The notes beneath the pieces are model-generated. The model made no database searches and was not told where the DNA came from. It was given only the letters and a program-made list of their open reading frames with translations. The translations under genes were made by a program, and so were the position numbers. From positions 1 through 12,900 of the forward strand of contig ONXZ01000079.1 in assembly GCA_900321905.1 (NCBI GenBank): a DNA stretch of 12,900 nucleotides, read 5' to 3'. Shown piece by piece: positions 5,079 to 11,932 of the stretch; within the stretch, counting starts at the first letter, position 1, and each line of letters starts with the position of its first letter. This stretch comes from an uncultured Eubacteriales bacterium. Lineage in GTDB: Bacteria; Bacillota; Clostridia; Oscillospirales; Acutalibacteraceae.

Positions 5079-5106
5079 TTGCATTTTTTGTTAAACAGTA
5101 TATAAT
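5079..5106 (+). promoter_or_regulatory. Likely promoter of the MATE transporter gene
   Basis: A consensus TATAAT (5101-5106) lies 16 bp downstream of a weak TTGCAT (5079-5084). The predicted start is near 5113, giving a leader of about 28 nt with GAGGT (5128-5132) before the ATG at 5141. The -35 is poor, so confidence rests mainly on the -10 and the position between a terminator and a gene. Confidence 0.5.
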
Positions 5107-5140
5107 GTATATTAATCCTATACATTTGAGGTCAAATGTC

Positions 5141-6451
5141 ATGAAAAGTAAAACTGATATGCTTAGCGGCAACGCCATAAAAAGTATCATAGTTTTTGCG
5201 CTTCCGATTATGCTGTCATCGCTGTTGCAGTATAACTATGCGCTTGTTGACAACATCATCGTCGGCAGGTATGTCAGCACTGACGCACTTGCCGCCGTTG
5301 GCAATGTCGGCTCCATTAATTCTTTTATTATCGGTGCTGCGCTCGGACTGACAAGCGGATTTACAATTCCTGTTGCTCACGCGTTCGGCGCGGGCGACAA
5401 ACGCAAAGTCGCGCACTATTCAGGTAGCAGCATTGTTGTTGCGCTTTTGGTGGGCATTATAATTGTCATTACGGCGCATTTGCTGTCAACACCTTTGCTC
5501 AAACTTATAGGTACGCCTGCAAAGATTATCAATCTTTCATCTGCGTATGTTAATATACTGTATTTCGGCGTGCCGTTTCAAATGCTTTCAAACAATTTTA
5601 CTGCGATTTCAAGGGCAGTCGGCGAAAGCAGAAAGCCGCTGTATTTCTTTATGATAAGCGTGTTTGTGAACTTCTGTCTTGATATGCTGTTTGTCAAAAC
5701 ATTTGGCTGGGGCGTTGAGGGCGCAGCAGCTGCAACGCTGATTTCACACATAACTGCAGCGTCGCTCACGGGATTTTATATCATAAAACTCAACGACGAT
5801 GTGCAGATTACAAAAGAGGATTTAAAGTTCCACCCAAAAACTGCTCTCAAACAAATCGGACTCGGTATTCCTGTGTCCCTGCAGTTTACAATAACTTCTG
5901 TCGGTTCAATGTGCCTGCAGAGCGCCGTTAACTCGTTTGGCGCAAACGTAATTGCAGGATTTACCGCCGCAAGCAGGGTTGAAAATCTTACAAACCTGCC
6001 TATGTCGGGCCTGGGTGTTGCTACACAAACTTTCGTGGGGCAGAATTACGGCGCAAAAAATTACGACAGGATTGTGAAGTCGGTCAAAAGGATATTCCTG
6101 CTCGACCTCTGCGTGTCGATTGCAATGAGCATAATTCTGTATTTAATCAGCAAACCGATGGTGTCGCTGTTTATGACTTCGCCGAATGCAGAAATGATTA
6201 CAGCGGCAAACAGGTACATACTTGCGACCTGCCAGTGTTACAGTCTCGTCGCTGTACTGTTTGTGCTTCGTAACACCTTGCAGGGACTTGGCTTTACATA
6301 CGCCAATATGGTTGCGGGCGCAGGTGAACTTGCAGGCAGAATACTCATAGCCTTTGTGTTCAGCCGCACCGGCAGCGTGGCTGCTTGCAGATATTCCGCT
6401 TGCGTTAATCTATCTTTCAAAACACCGCAAGTTCAAAAAACTCGCGCTTGA
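5141..6451 (+). CDS. MATE-family multidrug/Na+ antiporter, C-terminus frameshifted
   Basis: Multipass inner-membrane exporter of the MATE family, which uses H+ or Na+ gradients to expel cationic drugs and metabolites. The ATG at 5141 has GAGGT 8 bp upstream and gives the typical start MKSKTDMLSGNAIKSIIVF. The ATG at 5105 overlaps the -10 box and was rejected. Family signatures are clear: LPIMLSSLLQ, VDNIIVGRYV, LAAVGNVGS, the GESRKPLYF region at mid-protein, and the second-half repeat with LGIPVSLQFT and GVATQTFVGQNYGAKN. The protein reads normally to about residue 407 (GRILIAFVFS). It then ends in 29 residues unlike any MATE tail, while the expected last helix and basic tail are present in another frame (see 6351-6476). 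As written it lacks part of its final helix, so it may be inactive or the base sequence may contain an error. Monocistronic. Confidence 0.88.
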   Translation: MKSKTDMLSGNAIKSIIVFALPIMLSSLLQYNYALVDNIIVGRYVSTDALAAVGNVGSINSFIIGAALGLTSGFTIPVAHAFGAGDKRKVAHYSGSSIVVALLVGIIIVITAHLLSTPLLKLIGTPAKIINLSSAYVNILYFGVPFQMLSNNFTAISRAVGESRKPLYFFMISVFVNFCLDMLFVKTFGWGVEGAAAATLISHITAASLTGFYIIKLNDDVQITKEDLKFHPKTALKQIGLGIPVSLQFTITSVGSMCLQSAVNSFGANVIAGFTAASRVENLTNLPMSGLGVATQTFVGQNYGAKNYDRIVKSVKRIFLLDLCVSIAMSIILYLISKPMVSLFMTSPNAEMITAANRYILATCQCYSLVAVLFVLRNTLQGLGFTYANMVAGAGELAGRILIAFVFSRTGSVAACRYSACVNLSFKTPQVQKTRA

Positions 6452-7663: not shown

Positions 7664-7706
7664 TTTAATGCTTTTTAATGTTCGTTTAATATTCGTGTTG
7701 TATTAT
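7664..7706 (+). promoter_or_regulatory. Response-regulator box with -10, distal promoter of the two-component operon
   Basis: TTTAAT half-sites start at 7664, 7674 and 7685, about one helical turn apart. The core TTTTAATGTTCGTTTAA (7673-7689) is followed after 11 bp by TATTAT (7701-7706), with no separate -35. A second site with the same core (one mismatch) and the same distance to TATTAT lies at 9873-9906. Direct repeats at 11-bp spacing are typical of OmpR/PhoB-family activators, so the regulator encoded at 7897 is the natural candidate. Transcription would start near 7713, leaving a leader of about 184 nt. Confidence 0.65.
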
Positions 7707-7714
7707 TCAGACAA

Positions 7715-7809
7715 GGGAAGTAACCCCCTTCCCCAAAAAAGGCTCAAAGCCTTTTAAACACTCTCCTTTCATACAGCGAGTCTGCGGTGTCCCCCCACTG
7801 CGGGCTCGC
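7715..7809 (+). other. Structured leader: three consecutive hairpins upstream of the two-component operon
   Basis: This stretch has no gene. It holds GGGAAG / CTTCCC (7715-7720 with 7728-7733), then AAAAGGCT-CAA-AGCCTTTT (7737-7755), a short terminator-like hairpin. A long GC-rich 14-bp stem with three G-U wobbles follows (7776-7789 with 7796-7809, six-base pyrimidine loop). If the distal promoter is used, all three would lie in the 5' leader and could act as an attenuator or processing site. I do not recognise a known riboswitch. Confidence 0.5.
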
Positions 7810-7825
7810 GCTCTTTAAAACCCCA

Positions 7826-7849
7826 TTTGCAACTTAACTTAGTTGCAAA
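7826..7849. promoter_or_regulatory. Inverted repeat TTTGCAAC-N8-GTTGCAAA before the response regulator
   Basis: Perfect 8-bp arms (7826-7833 and 7842-7849) separated by TTAACTTA. The repeat ends just before the proximal promoter candidate at 7853-7881, a suitable place for a regulator site. It resembles the dyad at 7628-7648, with T/C and A/G swaps next to the spacer. Confidence 0.5.
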
Positions 7850-7852
7850 ATG

Positions 7853-7881
7853 TTTACTATTTTTCAAATATATGCTAATAT
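7853..7881 (+). promoter_or_regulatory. Possible proximal promoter of the two-component operon
   Basis: TTTACT (7853-7858), a 17-bp spacer and TAATAT (7876-7881) preceded by TG (7873-7874), an extended -10 form. The predicted start near 7888 is very close to the GGCGGTGATT ribosome binding site, leaving almost no leader, which weakens the call. Confidence 0.35.
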
Positions 7882-7896
7882 ATAGGCGGTGATTAT

Positions 7897-8580
7897 ATGC
7901 GTATTTTAGTAGTAGAAGATGAATATAAACTTGCTGACGTAATTGCTGCAAGGCTAAAAAAGGAAAAGTATGAGGTTGATATTTCCACCGACGGCGAGGA
8001 CGGACTCTATAATGCCGAAAGCGGAATTTACGACCTTATTATTCTTGATGTTATGCTGCCGGGCGTAAACGGGTTTGAAATTCTCAGCCAGATACGCGAG
8101 GAGGGTATAACTTCAAAGGTAATTATGCTCACCGCAAAAAGTATGCTTGAGGATAAACTCGAGGGTCTGACAGGCGGCGCAAACGACTATGTCACAAAGC
8201 CGTTTCATATGGACGAACTCCTCGCAAGGGTTAATATTCAGTTGCGTCAGGACTCATCAAACGTGCAAAAGGACTATATTGAGTTTGGCGATATCAGACT
8301 CGGCACCGAAACATCAAGCCTCACCTGCACTTCAACAGGCGAGAGCATTAATGTAATTAATAAGGAGTTTCAACTCCTTGAATACTTTATCAACAACCCT
8401 GACAGAATTCTGTCAAAAGAGCAGATTTACGACAAGGTATGGGGTTACGATAACGAGATTGAGTCAAACAACCTTGAAGCGTATTTGTCCTTTATCCGCA
8501 AAAAGTTAAAGGCAATCGGCGCAGGCGTTAACATCAAGGCAGTTCGCGGTATGGGTTACAGAATGGAGATTAAAGAATGA
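7897..8580 (+). CDS. OmpR/PhoB-family response regulator
   Basis: 227 residues, normal length for the family. The receiver domain (about 1-118) has all key residues: acidic pocket E7/D8, phospho-acceptor D51 in the LIILDVMLP strand, switch residue T79, and K101 in the YVTKPF motif. The winged-helix DNA-binding domain (about 128-227) has NKEFQLLEYFINNPDRILSK, the recognition-helix region SNNLEAYLSFIRKKL, and the wing VRGMGYRM. The ATG at 7897 is preceded by GGCGGTGATT, a ribosome binding site form also used by the HTH gene. The stop overlaps the kinase start by 4 bp (ATGA), so the two are translationally coupled. Boxes with 11-bp-spaced TTTAA repeats upstream of this operon and before the gene at 9938 are its likely targets (inference). 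Confidence 0.96.
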   Translation: MRILVVEDEYKLADVIAARLKKEKYEVDISTDGEDGLYNAESGIYDLIILDVMLPGVNGFEILSQIREEGITSKVIMLTAKSMLEDKLEGLTGGANDYVTKPFHMDELLARVNIQLRQDSSNVQKDYIEFGDIRLGTETSSLTCTSTGESINVINKEFQLLEYFINNPDRILSKEQIYDKVWGYDNEIESNNLEAYLSFIRKKLKAIGAGVNIKAVRGMGYRMEIKE

Positions 8581-9812
8581 ACAAACTAAGATTACAGGTC
8601 TTTGGTGTGATTTTTCTGATTCTCACGCTTATAACCACCGCTATTTTCTGCGGATATAATATGGTTATATATAATCATCAGTATCAATCTGTAAAACGTT
8701 GCCTTGACCAGACTTCTCATATGAACATCAGCGGTTTTGGGCAAAAAAAAGGCGATTTTGAGCCTGACGGCAGCGCAGTCAACCGCAAACCCGAAAACGT
8801 GGACGACATCCGTTTTATCGACTTTACGGTTTATACGGTTAAACTCAACAGCGACAACACTGTTTCAGAAGTTATCAACCATTCTGGTGACGGTACAAGT
8901 GATGAAGATATTGAAAAAATTGCTACTGTAATGATTTCGCAAAGTTATCAGAGCAGTATCGGCAATTTGTACTTTGCCGATTACTCGTATTCGTACCTTT
9001 CAGGCGAGGCTATTACAATTGTAAACAACGAAGGCACAAAGCAAACGCTGCGCAATACGCTTTTGTATTCTCTTATTCTGTATTTTCTTATTGAGGGTAT
9101 TATTTATCTTGCCGCAAGAATACTCACCCTGCGTATCACAAAACCTGTGGCCGACAGTTTTGACAAGCAAAAGCAGTTTATCGCTGACGCTTCGCACGAA
9201 CTTAAAACGCCGCTGTCGGTTATCATAGCAAGCGCGGACGCACTCGAAACAAATCCTACTGAGCACAAGTGGCTTGAAAATATCAAGAGCGAGAGCGACA
9301 GAATGAACAAACTCGTCGCCGACCTGCTTGAACTTGCTAAAAGCGAAGAAGTTGCCGACAAAAGCGAGTTTGCCGCAGGCGATTTATCTAAGGTTGTGGA
9401 AAAATCGGCGCTCACCTTTGAGGGCGTTATGTTTGAAAAAGGCGTTTTTCTAACCGATGATATTCAAAGCGGAATTGAGATGAAAATGAGCGAATACAAG
9501 ATTCAGCAACTTATTGCAATTCTGCTTGACAATGCAGTAAAACACAGCGAAAAAGGCTCGACAGTAAATATCGCTCTCAAAAAGGACAAGGACATTATCC
9601 TGACTGTAACCAACGAGGGCGAGGGCATACCGAAAGGTGAGGAGGAAAAAATCTTTGAGCGTTTCTACCGTGCAGACGAGTCGCGTAACAGGAACGAAAA
9701 CCGTTACGGATTAGGTTTGGCAATTGCAAAAAATATCTGTCAACTCCACGGTGGCACAATCTCCGCAAAGTCTGAAAACGGCAAAACAACATTTAAGGTA
9801 ATATTTAAATAG
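8577..9812 (+). CDS. Membrane sensor histidine kinase, partner of the adjacent response regulator
   Basis: 411 residues. Membrane segments at about 8-29 and 160-180 bracket an extracytoplasmic sensor region of about 130 residues that I cannot assign to a known sensor fold. The second helix is followed by only about 20 residues (RITKPVADSFDKQKQ) before the H-box FIADASHELKTPLSVI, with phospho-acceptor His207, so a full HAMP domain is absent. The ATPase domain has the N-box LLDNAVKHS (Asn319), an NEGEGIP G1-like box, the F-box FERFYRADESR and the G2 box GLGLAIAKN (Gly378, Gly380). It autophosphorylates and passes phosphate to D51 of the regulator. It overlaps the regulator gene by 4 bp and is followed by a terminator, so the operon is two genes. 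Signal unknown. Confidence 0.95.
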   Translation: MNKLRLQVFGVIFLILTLITTAIFCGYNMVIYNHQYQSVKRCLDQTSHMNISGFGQKKGDFEPDGSAVNRKPENVDDIRFIDFTVYTVKLNSDNTVSEVINHSGDGTSDEDIEKIATVMISQSYQSSIGNLYFADYSYSYLSGEAITIVNNEGTKQTLRNTLLYSLILYFLIEGIIYLAARILTLRITKPVADSFDKQKQFIADASHELKTPLSVIIASADALETNPTEHKWLENIKSESDRMNKLVADLLELAKSEEVADKSEFAAGDLSKVVEKSALTFEGVMFEKGVFLTDDIQSGIEMKMSEYKIQQLIAILLDNAVKHSEKGSTVNIALKKDKDIILTVTNEGEGIPKGEEEKIFERFYRADESRNRNENRYGLGLAIAKNICQLHGGTISAKSENGKTTFKVIFK

Positions 9813-9822
9813 TATAGTGTAG

Positions 9823-9853
9823 GGACCGCTGACCACAGCGGTCCGCTTTTTTT
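9823..9853 (+). terminator. Rho-independent terminator of the two-component operon, hairpin-repeat family member
   Basis: Perfect 9-bp stem GGACCGCTG / CAGCGGTCC (9823-9831 with 9836-9844), ACCA loop, then GC and seven T. The sequence around the stem (TGTAGGGA...CCACA...TCCGC) matches the hairpin at 11968-11996 with paired changes in the stem, so it appears to be a member of a dispersed intergenic repeat. Confidence 0.88.
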
Positions 9854-9872
9854 ATCAAAAATTATTTTTGCG

Positions 9873-9906
9873 TTTTAATATTCGTTTAAGGAAGGCGGTG
9901 TATTAT
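9873..9906 (+). promoter_or_regulatory. Activator-type promoter of the beta-helix protein gene (response-regulator box plus -10)
   Basis: TTTTAATATTCGTTTAA (9873-9889) followed after 11 bp by TGTATTAT with the -10 TATTAT at 9901-9906. The region normally holding the -35 is occupied by the direct repeat, as in PhoB-activated promoters. The predicted start near 9913 gives a 25-nt leader with AAAAGGAG before the ATG at 9938. Sequence and geometry match the site at 7673-7706. Confidence 0.65.
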
Positions 9907-9937: not shown

Positions 9938-11932
9938 ATGACAAAGAAACGCAGAACATTACGAAATATAATAATGATATTAATGATTGTAGCCTTTGCC
10001 GCTTGCGGATATATGACGTATGACGCGGCGACAAGCAACAATACACCGCAGATTGGTATGCAAATGCAGGGCGGACAGCAGTCCGACAGCAATGCGCAGC
10101 CACCCGAAATGCCGAGCGGCGATAGCCAGAACGGCAACTCAAACGGTCAGCCGCCTGAAATGCCGAGCGGCGATAATCAGAACGGCAACTCAAACGGTCA
10201 GCCGCCCGAAATGCCGAGCGGCGATAACCAGAGCGGTGACTCAAACGGTCAGCCGCCTGAAAAACCGGACGGCGACAACCAAAATGGCAACTCAAACGGT
10301 CAACCGCCTGAAAAACCGGACGGCGATAACCAAAACGGTGACTCGAACGGTCAGCAGAAATCCGCTGACTCAAACAGCACAAACAACAGTCAAAACAGCG
10401 ACGGCAACTCCGCAAACAACACGCAAAACAGAAAGCAGATGAGCGGCGATAAAATGGGCGGTAGGCACAGCAAGTCGGTATCACCGATTTACTACGTTGC
10501 ATTCGCTATTGAAGGCATTGGCATAGCAGCACTTCTGCTATATCTCATTATGTCGCATATGAACAAACGCGGCGCACGCGAATCGCTCAAAGGCGGCAAG
10601 CGCATAGCGGTATTCGTGCTCGCAACAATCGTCATTGCTTCAGGTCTTACATTTGCAGGTTCGTCGGCAGTTTGCAGCGCATCACCTCAACAAATGGGCG
10701 GAGGTATGCATCAAATGGGCGGAGCGCCCGGCGGCAACTCGCAGTCATCTGAAAGCGTTGAGGCAAACGGTGCAACCACGGTTGACGGCAAGGAGCAGAC
10801 GCTCGCCGACAGTTACACTTCAACCACGGCTGACGAAAGTCCGATTCTCGTAACAAACGGCGGTAACGCCACAATTACAGGTACAGTCAACAAAAAATCA
10901 GGCGACAGCACTAACACAGAAACGTCCGAGTTTAACGGTATTAACGCAGGTGTACTCGTTCAGGCTGACTCAACTGCAACTATTGAGGGCGCAACAATCA
11001 CCACAAGCGCAAAGGGCGCAAACGCTGTGTTCTCAACAGGCGAAAATTCAAAGGTTTACGTTAAAAACACAACTATCAAAACTACAGGCGCTTCATCGTC
11101 AAGGGGACTTGATTCTACCTATGGCGGATATATTGAAGCCGACAACGTAACAATCACAACGCAGGGCGGGTCTTGCGCGACTCTTGCAACCGACAGGGGC
11201 GAGGGTACGGTTATTGCAAACAACTCTACCCTTGAAACCAACGGCGCAGGTTCACCGATAATTTACTCAACGGGCAATATCAGCATTGACAACACAACAG
11301 GCACGGCAAACGGTGCGCAGAACGTTGTTATCGAGGGTAAAAATTCCGCAACTGTCACAAACTCAACACTTACCGCAAGCGGCGCAGGCAACCGCGGCAA
11401 CGTTGATCAGGCAGGCGTTATGATTTACCAGTCAATGAGCGGTGACGCAGGCGAGGGAACAGGCACATTTACTGCAAAGAATTCCTCTCTGTCAATTCAG
11501 AAGAACAGCGATTACTACAAAACAGCGCCTATGTTCTTTATCACAAACACAGACGCAGTAATCAATCTCACAAACACAAAACTTGCTTTTGGCAGCGGCA
11601 CACTTATCAGCGCCACGGGTACAAGCGAGTGGGGCAACAGCGGCTCAAACGGCGGCAATGTAACGCTCAACGCAACAAGCCAGACTCTCAAGGGTAATAT
11701 CGAAGTTGACAAAATTTCAACAGCGAACATCACGCTCAAAAAATCGACTTACGAAGGTACGATTAACGGCGACAACACTGCAAAAGAGATTAAACTCACA
11801 CTCGATAAAGACTCAAAAATCACCCTCACAGGCGATTCATATGTAACCTCGCTCGACAATGCCGACTCAACAAACAGCAACATCGACTTTAACGGCTACA
11901 CCCTTTACGTCAACGGCAAGGCGGTTAACTAA
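9938..11932 (+). CDS. Membrane-anchored beta-helix surface protein with Pro/Gly/Asn-rich repeat stalk
   Basis: 664 residues. The ATG at 9938 has GGAG (9925-9928) 9 bp upstream; an in-frame ATG at 9905 lies inside the -10 box and was rejected. Residues 11-27 are a membrane segment ending near Cys23 (FAAC, only a marginal lipobox). Residues 51-135 are five copies of a 17-residue repeat (SNGQPPEMPSGDNQNGN type), then an Asn/Ser-rich stretch. Two more hydrophobic segments follow at about 184-204 and 222-243, then a Met/Gly-rich patch (QQMGGGMHQMGGAPGG). Residues about 270-664 are repetitive, rich in Thr/Asn/Gly and nearly Cys-free. Turns such as ATITGTVN, ATIEGATITTSAKGANA and VYVKNTTIKTTG recur, typical of a right-handed parallel beta-helix like those annotated as carbohydrate-binding or adhesin-like proteins in clostridia. 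No catalytic motif is visible. It directly follows the two-component operon and carries the matching promoter box, so it is probably an output of that system. Ligand and exact topology are uncertain. Confidence 0.8.
   Translation: MTKKRRTLRNIIMILMIVAFAACGYMTYDAATSNNTPQIGMQMQGGQQSDSNAQPPEMPSGDSQNGNSNGQPPEMPSGDNQNGNSNGQPPEMPSGDNQSGDSNGQPPEKPDGDNQNGNSNGQPPEKPDGDNQNGDSNGQQKSADSNSTNNSQNSDGNSANNTQNRKQMSGDKMGGRHSKSVSPIYYVAFAIEGIGIAALLLYLIMSHMNKRGARESLKGGKRIAVFVLATIVIASGLTFAGSSAVCSASPQQMGGGMHQMGGAPGGNSQSSESVEANGATTVDGKEQTLADSYTSTTADESPILVTNGGNATITGTVNKKSGDSTNTETSEFNGINAGVLVQADSTATIEGATITTSAKGANAVFSTGENSKVYVKNTTIKTTGASSSRGLDSTYGGYIEADNVTITTQGGSCATLATDRGEGTVIANNSTLETNGAGSPIIYSTGNISIDNTTGTANGAQNVVIEGKNSATVTNSTLTASGAGNRGNVDQAGVMIYQSMSGDAGEGTGTFTAKNSSLSIQKNSDYYKTAPMFFITNTDAVINLTNTKLAFGSGTLISATGTSEWGNSGSNGGNVTLNATSQTLKGNIEVDKISTANITLKKSTYEGTINGDNTAKEIKLTLDKDSKITLTGDSYVTSLDNADSTNSNIDFNGYTLYVNGKAVN
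10088..10354 (+). repeat. In-frame 51-bp tandem repeat (five copies plus a partial)
   Basis: The coding units start at 10088, 10139, 10190, 10241 and 10292 with exact 51-bp period, each encoding S-N-x-Q-P-P-E-[MK]-P-[SD]-G-D-x-Q-[NS]-G-[ND], followed by a partial SNGQ. The first three copies carry EMPSG and the last two EKPDG, suggesting stepwise duplication. The repeat forms an extended hydrophilic stalk and could vary in copy number. Confidence 0.9.

Follow-up and report, generated by a model that had tools for sequence, protein, structure and literature searches.

We analysed a 12,900-nucleotide stretch of contig ONXZ01000079.1 from an uncultured Eubacteriales bacterium (hereafter the window), centring on two copies of a direct-repeat box associated with a two-component (response regulator and sensor kinase) operon and the neighbouring surface-protein gene. 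We think it likely that both boxes are sites of the response regulator encoded at 7897, box 2 directing the surface protein and box 1 a small RNA carrying an anti-Shine-Dalgarno (anti-SD) sequence, within an envelope and surface regulon that would work like the CiaRH system of streptococci. This reading draws on sequence comparison, which shows the box with its spacing, its occurrence together with the regulator, targets that recur, a predicted RNA fold and a conserved seed. The features on which it turns are as follows.

7674 to 7690, forward strand: proposed response-regulator box 1, direct repeat TTTAAT-N5-TTTAAT (motif match and genus scan)
7664 to 7669, forward strand: TTTAAT, which may be a third half-site, upstream of box 1
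7701 to 7706, forward strand: -10 box TATTAT of promoter 1, with predicted start A7713 (conserved offset)
9874 to 9890, forward strand: proposed response-regulator box 2, direct repeat TTTAAT-N5-TTTAAG (motif match and genus scan)
9901 to 9906, forward strand: -10 box TATTAT of promoter 2, with predicted start A9913 (conserved offset)
7897 to 8580, forward strand: OmpR/PhoB-family response regulator (Pfam Response_reg and Trans_reg_C)

The 17-bp core TTTTAATRTTCGTTTAA occurs at 7673-7689, with G at its variable base, and at 9873-9889, with A. A third match in the window requires three mismatches, and three or more matches arose in 0 of 200 shuffles. Half-sites start at 7674 and 7685 (both TTTAAT) and at 9874 and 9885 (TTTAAT and TTTAAG), and the period is therefore 11 bp in both copies, as in OmpR/PhoB-type sites; TATTAT begins at 7701 and 9901, the 12th base past the core in each. 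Direct matching and position thus bear out the original prediction, made from the window alone, as regards a core with one difference, its half-site period and its distance to TATTAT. The TG that was also placed ahead of TATTAT is present at the window copies but absent from the consensus of 74 aligned sites.

Across the genus, the box tracks the regulator. In 80 genomes of the same genus, with the reversed motif as the control for pattern scans, the regulator was found in 22, at 81-95% identity. Exact copies of the core TTTAATNTTCGTTTAA number 49, spread over 21 of the 80, all 21 of them regulator-positive; the 58 regulator-negative genomes and the backward control have none (Fisher p 2e-18, a test that takes no account of shared ancestry). 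The remaining regulator-positive genome, G072 (genome, contig and locus numbers are our own), has one-mismatch sites only, and one-mismatch matches turn up in regulator-negative genomes too. Random scatter of the motif, or its absence before orthologous operons, had been named as signs against the original prediction; instead the motif is confined with the regulator (21 of 22 against 0 of 58), and a box with at most two mismatches lies upstream of the regulator in all 21 genomes with enough sequence, the contig of G073 ending too early.

Promoter spacing points the same way. We examined 106 sites, namely all those with at most one mismatch in 19 regulator-positive genomes plus the exact ones of G084-G086 (49 exact and 57 one-mismatch sites). 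A -10-like hexamer (at least four of six matches) stands exactly 11 nt past the core in 74 of them, against 32 for the next best offset; this holds for 48 of the 49 exact sites, though the search pattern left the -10 out, and for 26 of the 57 one-mismatch sites. The consensus drawn from these 74 aligned sites gives the full box model TTTAAT-N5-TTTAAN-N10-TATNAT, with C and A at 6 and 7 nt past the -10 in 82% and 86%. Tandem half-sites 11 bp apart at the place of the -35, together with a receiver and winged-helix regulator, are what would be expected of an OmpR/PhoB regulon. Genus-wide comparison therefore supports the box as a regulator-linked, activator-type promoter element that replaces the -35, as had been proposed.

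Within its own genome (G000; 1.76 Mb in 274 contigs, 84% complete), the core has two exact matches, one with one mismatch and one with two, and once three mismatches are allowed the matches are noise, 39 where the backward control has 51. Downstream of the one- and two-mismatch sites are genes for an exported protein and a small membrane protein, each containing stretches rich in Pro/Gly that resemble the window surface protein; the exported protein looks 'esterase-like' by eye and has no Pfam match. A scan of viral contigs for the box plus TA matched 16 stretches.

Box 1 (7673) lies 207 nt before the regulator, and the gap holds a probable small RNA. Thus, of the prediction that one box precedes the kinase operon and the other the beta-helix gene, the second half stands, whereas box 1 leads first into this RNA.

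7713 to 7812, forward strand: probable small RNA, ends predicted (fold, homologous elements and compensatory pairs)
7757 to 7774, forward strand: AACACTCTCCTTTCATAC, anti-SD seed block (conservation in the subclade)
7853 to 7881, forward strand: proximal sigma-A-like promoter of the kinase operon, TTTACT-N17-TAATAT, with TG at 7873-7874

The segment 7713-7812 contains no ATG and folds at -42.2 kcal/mol (z -6.7) into predicted hairpins at 7715-7733 and 7737-7755 and a terminal hairpin at 7776-7809, preceded by an unpaired seed (CTCTCCTT has an unpaired probability of 0.99; the anti-SD seed is ACUCUCCUUU). The 18-nt block AACACTCTCCTTTCATAC is invariant in all seven aligned subclade members, and the hairpins vary. 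We found 19 such RNAs in 18 of the 22 regulator-positive genomes, seven of them away from the regulator gene. Typically they have a 5' hairpin, unpaired CUCUCCUU and a terminal hairpin, with full-length z of -3.8 to -8.6 and the seed unpaired at 0.72 or above in 16 of 19 folds; by eye, several free-standing RNAs have the anti-start-codon triplet CAU on the 5' side of the anti-SD, and the window RNA has it on the 3' side. Rfam 15 gave no family match at 7713-7812 with E-values up to 5.

TCTCCT stands within 110 nt of the -10 at every one of the 18 exact sites that lack a close same-strand gene, compared with 0 of the other 31. A composite scan for box, -10 and TCTCCT 26-56 nt on matched 17 of 80 genomes, 16 of them regulator-positive and the other being G032, with none in the backward control, and contributed one further RNA, in G001. 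Because TCTCCT in the leader was the basis on which 18 of the 19 RNAs were selected, and the 19th came from a pattern including it, the seed is not independent evidence; independent of this selection are the hairpins, the lack of close genes, the compensatory pairs and the invariant 18-nt block. In the terminal stem, aligned from trimmed sequences with a structure we set from those same sequences, 4 of 11 pairs have changes on both sides, 4 of 500 shuffles attained a covariation score as high, and 94.6% of cells are paired, versus at most 43.1% when the structure is slid.

Several observations count against this reading. The seed is poorly exposed in 3 of the 19 folds (0.29, 0.45 and 0.51), no such RNA was found in 4 of the 22 regulator-positive genomes (G003, G016, G072 and G073), and regulator-negative G032 carries a similar element (L331, contig C37:11663-11746) with a degenerate box, ATCTCTCCTTTC and a strong terminal hairpin, possibly a vestige or a sister system that has diverged. 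Doubly changed stem pairs were at least as numerous in 25 of 500 shuffles, and pair types in 112. A target search with TATGAAAGGAGAGTGTT at up to three mismatches in seven genomes gave 62 matches, seven being the RNAs themselves, versus 37 for the backward control, and 21 of the 23 other fetched target loci, when viewed, held scattered candidates and no convincing conserved set; these included what we take to be pheT-like, RnfE-like and other genes. One-mismatch sites are partly noise, 9 of 57 being classed inside open reading frames (ORFs) and 6 preceding nothing, and in loci nearly all from other lineages 0 of 117 boxes is followed by a TCTCC-type leader. The 'inside ORF' class covers ORFs of at least 80 aa retained greedily by script; a 91-aa ORF from the same list lies on the opposite strand across the exact site G020:C202, and window box 1 falls within a 109-aa mechanical ORF that the script discarded. 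Finally, members of the window subclade have a poor T-tail behind the terminal hairpin, and the element could therefore be a leader instead of a discrete RNA, or termination may be partial.

It is thus conceivable, if unlikely, that box 1 autoregulates the kinase operon directly through a long structured 5' leader, cis-acting or inert, with no trans RNA. A terminal hairpin lacking a good T-run in the window subclade would suit such a leader, as would nine sister genomes in which the box lies 33-49 nt before the regulator. However, 7 of the 19 elements are away from the regulator gene, and six of these (G001 left out) have no retained same-strand ORF of at least 80 aa within 1.8 kb or before the contig end. 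By eye, the conserved seed mismatches the regulator's own GGCGGTGA, and of the 12 genomes in which the RNA separates box and regulator, 7 have a TTTACT-N17-TA-rich promoter-like sequence between RNA and regulator. We favour a discrete, trans-acting RNA in the window. Direct autoregulation through box 1, part of the original prediction, is plausible in the nine sister genomes but doubtful in the window, because the probable small RNA and then a separate promoter-like sequence precede the regulator.

Box 2 leads to the surface protein, which follows the kinase gene.

8577 to 9812, forward strand: sensor histidine kinase (Pfam HisKA and HATPase_c), with two hydrophobic helices about 140 residues apart (hydropathy)
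9823 to 9844, forward strand: intrinsic-terminator-like hairpin behind the kinase gene
9938 to 11932, forward strand: surface protein (AlphaFold model, hydropathy)

The start codon at 9938 that was originally assumed is likelier than ATG 9905, since the latter lies upstream of the predicted transcription start. Hydropathy and the model suggest an N-terminal hydrophobic helix, Pro-rich QPPEMPSGD repeats, two further hydrophobic helices and a C-terminal beta-helix. In the AlphaFold model residues ~278-664 are mostly above pLDDT 85, the proline-rich stretch is disordered, and the whole-chain mean pLDDT is 68. The protein has no Pfam match, although it is modelled as a beta-helix; a homolog at L255 matches Pfam Beta_helix (E 1e-6). 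Foldseek against the PDB returned nothing at E of 0.001 or below, the best rows being beta-helical adhesins and polysaccharide-acting enzymes, and these sub-threshold rows therefore support the fold class alone. Elsewhere in the window, 5105-6451 encodes a MATE transporter whose family match ends near residue 411 and whose C-terminus looks odd by eye.

In 60 genus genomes searched for copies of the surface protein (19 regulator-positive, 41 negative), 18 of the 19 regulator-positive genomes have a copy at least 57% identical, as does 1 of the 41 negative ones; the copy in G036 is a fragment at a contig end. The exception, G071 (L092), has a 62%-identical beta-helix gene without the regulator and without a recognizable box before the gene, and six other regulator-negative genomes hold relatives that are 41-43% identical. 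This comparison supports the box as marking the surface-protein gene as a conserved partner of the kinase system. The original prediction of a dedicated surface-protein target holds in that respect, but the regulon has many more targets.

At 18 of the 49 exact sites a probable small RNA comes next, in 12 cases ahead of the regulator and in 6 free-standing; the regulator itself comes next at 3, a beta-helix surface gene at 16 and a small, proline-rich membrane protein at 8, with one each before a VTC operon, an HtrA gene, a DUF815 ATPase gene and an unclassified protein (G073:C52). These classes were assigned by script, except for two set by hand where the contig ends (G003:C124 and G036:C115:282) and five 'other' proteins that we placed in the beta-helix class on the strength of their N-termini or a homology search. 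The 57 one-mismatch sites include 5 before VTC, 5 regulator, 4 small membrane protein, 4 HtrA, 3 DUF815, 2 HlyD-ABC-MacB and 1 Cthe_2159 genes, as well as some before unrelated genes. Pfam confirms VTC, DUF4956, Cthe_2159, Trypsin_2 with PDZ, DUF815, HlyD, ABC and MacB in the representatives scanned. HtrA-like genes have the box in five genus genomes, once exactly and four times with one mismatch; the G034 protein is Trypsin_2 with PDZ by Pfam, and the other genus HtrA calls come from BLAST clustering.

VTC - DUF4956 - Cthe_2159-type operons with a box occur at L161, L145 and L179 (G034, G002 and G001). In G034, Pfam places VTC (PF09359), DUF4956 (PF16316) and Cthe_2159 (PF14262) in that order behind the box; in the G001 operon genes 1 and 3 were scanned and gene 2 was assigned by likeness. 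Thus, the box would tie these three families to the kinase system. Box-like sites also lie upstream of a DUF815 AAA ATPase gene (L178, L146, L156 and L236), along with a second promoter-like stretch, GTGAACAAAT..TAAAAT. Additionally, many regulon mRNAs in the genus seem to start with CAAC and then a small hairpin such as CCTC-GAAA-GAGG (L051, L170 and L141); its stem sequence varies between genomes, and a conserved 5' mRNA element is possible.

Beyond the genus, a genome-collection scan found 167 regulator relatives. Among the best 80, 21 are 81-95% identical (titled Eubacterium sp., Oscillospiraceae, Ruminococcaceae, Clostridiales and Clostridia, many from ruminants), and the other 59, which formed our other-lineage set, are 64-74% identical, with submitter titles mostly of uncultured Bacilli and some of Erysipelotrichaceae, Clostridia and others. 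TTTAA-N6-TTTAA lies within 420 nt upstream of the regulator at 36 of these 59 loci, and at 11 of the remaining 23 a beta-helix gene with its own box precedes the regulator (by eye). Over 368 kb of these loci, TTTAA[TC].TT..TTTAA matched 113 times on the regulator strand, twice on the opposite strand and once backward. With genes called by phmmer, a box falls within -350..+60 of 29 of 30 permease-like genes, 14 of 15 beta-helix genes, 34 of 59 regulators and 9 of 17 HtrA genes, compared with 0 of 59 kinases and 6 of 135 other genes. The permease-like gene (MFILKNAWISIKRNKGR..; the label is our reading) follows soon after the kinase gene at the L265-L315 loci, and its first 106 residues have no Pfam match. 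As the same box and gene set recur in the 59 loci, the link of the kinase system and box to the beta-helix protein and HtrA appears to be ancient. At six loci of same-order genomes with regulators 46-49% identical (L044-L049), TTTA[AC]-N6-TTTA[AC] is absent save for one at position 226 in L047.

These data also bear on whether the boxes serve another OmpR-family regulator, the neighbouring kinase system being merely a regulated gene, which we judge very improbable. The box does resemble OmpR-family direct repeats generally, and the co-occurrence is compatible with a second regulator gained and lost alongside. Against this stand the near-perfect co-occurrence with the 7897 regulator in the genus, boxes that adjoin the same regulator in lineages at 64-74% identity, and the finding of three regulators with this DNA-binding domain in the 84%-complete own genome. 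Chance, or a mobile repeat without regulatory role, is extremely improbable as far as sequence can tell: at three mismatches the pattern occurs no more often than in the backward control, but exact sites number 49 versus 0, 48 of the 49 have a -10 at a fixed distance, and their flanks have diverged.

In the mechanism we propose, the regulator, once phosphorylated, would occupy the tandem TTTAAT half-sites that stand in for a -35 and bring sigma-A RNA polymerase to TATTAT 10 bp downstream, with starts at 7713 and 9913; binding, its dependence on phosphorylation, transcription, RNA function and the signal are here what we infer. Box 2 would switch on the beta-helix surface protein and box 1 an RNA of about 100 nt, whose unpaired ACUCUCCUUU seed may mask Shine-Dalgarno sequences of target mRNAs in trans. 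The kinase operon would be driven mainly by its own promoter at 7853-7881 but may gain some expression from read-through past the T-poor terminal hairpin. The regulon would form an envelope and surface set of surface proteins, HtrA, and the VTC/DUF4956/Cthe_2159 and HlyD-ABC-MacB operons.

By analogy, this circuit would work like CiaRH of streptococci. In CiaRH, the box is described as TTTAAG-N5-TTTAAG, with an 11-bp period, ten nucleotides to TATAAT and a C ahead of the start; its most active promoters drive small RNAs (csRNAs), many with two stem-loops and an unpaired anti-SD; htrA is a target; and the system feeds back on its own operon (PMC3091779, PMC8186281, PMC8317062, PMC9603419). The window circuit and its relatives share with that system, as it is described, the box geometry, the -10 spacing and the C that precedes the start, here predicted, and likewise HtrA, the probable anti-SD RNAs and the likely feedback (PMC3091779, PMC8317062, PMC9603419). 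A repeat-to--10 distance of ten with a -10 near TATAAT is found in 48 of 49 exact sites, HtrA is in the regulon both in the genus and in other lineages, and the box-driven RNAs have stem-loops and an unpaired anti-SD in their predicted structures. The recognition helix NLEAYLSFIRKKL here is identical by eye at 7 of 13 residues to VVEVYVSKVRKKL of CiaR, the 13 over which CiaR was compared (PMC3091779), and S-N-N-L-E, Y, S-F and R in it are invariant in eight aligned regulators. Among solved structures, the best 60 rows returned with the regulator as query comprise response regulators of OmpR/PhoB and other types, and CiaR is not among their names.

There are also differences. Base six of half-site 1 is T in 70 of 74 sites here, versus a G described as invariant in CiaRH, and beta-helix or proline-rich surface proteins make up many of the targets here. 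For csRNAs the nonamer is given as [A/C]UCCUAAA[A/C]. We write 'works like' and not 'is' CiaRH because the TTTAAG G, a defining CiaR feature, is not shared and because on the protein side the likeness covers the 13-residue recognition helix. A second parallel is Listeria, where LisRK-controlled LhrC small RNAs use a C-rich motif to bind near the ribosome-binding site of a surface-protein mRNA (PMC4132741). Both would be kinase-system-dependent RNAs with a C-rich motif, predicted in our case, but LhrC has UCCC at three sites and the RNA here a single UCUCCUU.

No open-licence paper among the matches listed, by titles and abstract starts, describes this regulon. Thus, the impression in the original prediction of a module not recognized as described may hold for the lineage, but the design closely resembles streptococcal CiaRH. 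A 2010 paper described CiaRH and its csRNAs as apparently missing outside streptococci. We suggest, with about even confidence, that a CiaRH-type surface-stress regulon, with the same promoter geometry and a core of HtrA and beta-helix proteins, is a widespread circuit of uncultured gut Firmicutes and not a streptococcal invention, and that one rumen genus gained or kept a csRNA-like anti-SD RNA as its post-transcriptional arm, often between box and kinase operon. Our analysis offers a testable regulator, box and regulon for gut-bacterial families of unclear role, namely beta-helix proline-rich surface proteins and VTC/DUF4956/Cthe_2159 operons. It would also extend the streptococcal kinase-to-small-RNA design, and bears on whether such RNAs had a single origin or arose repeatedly.

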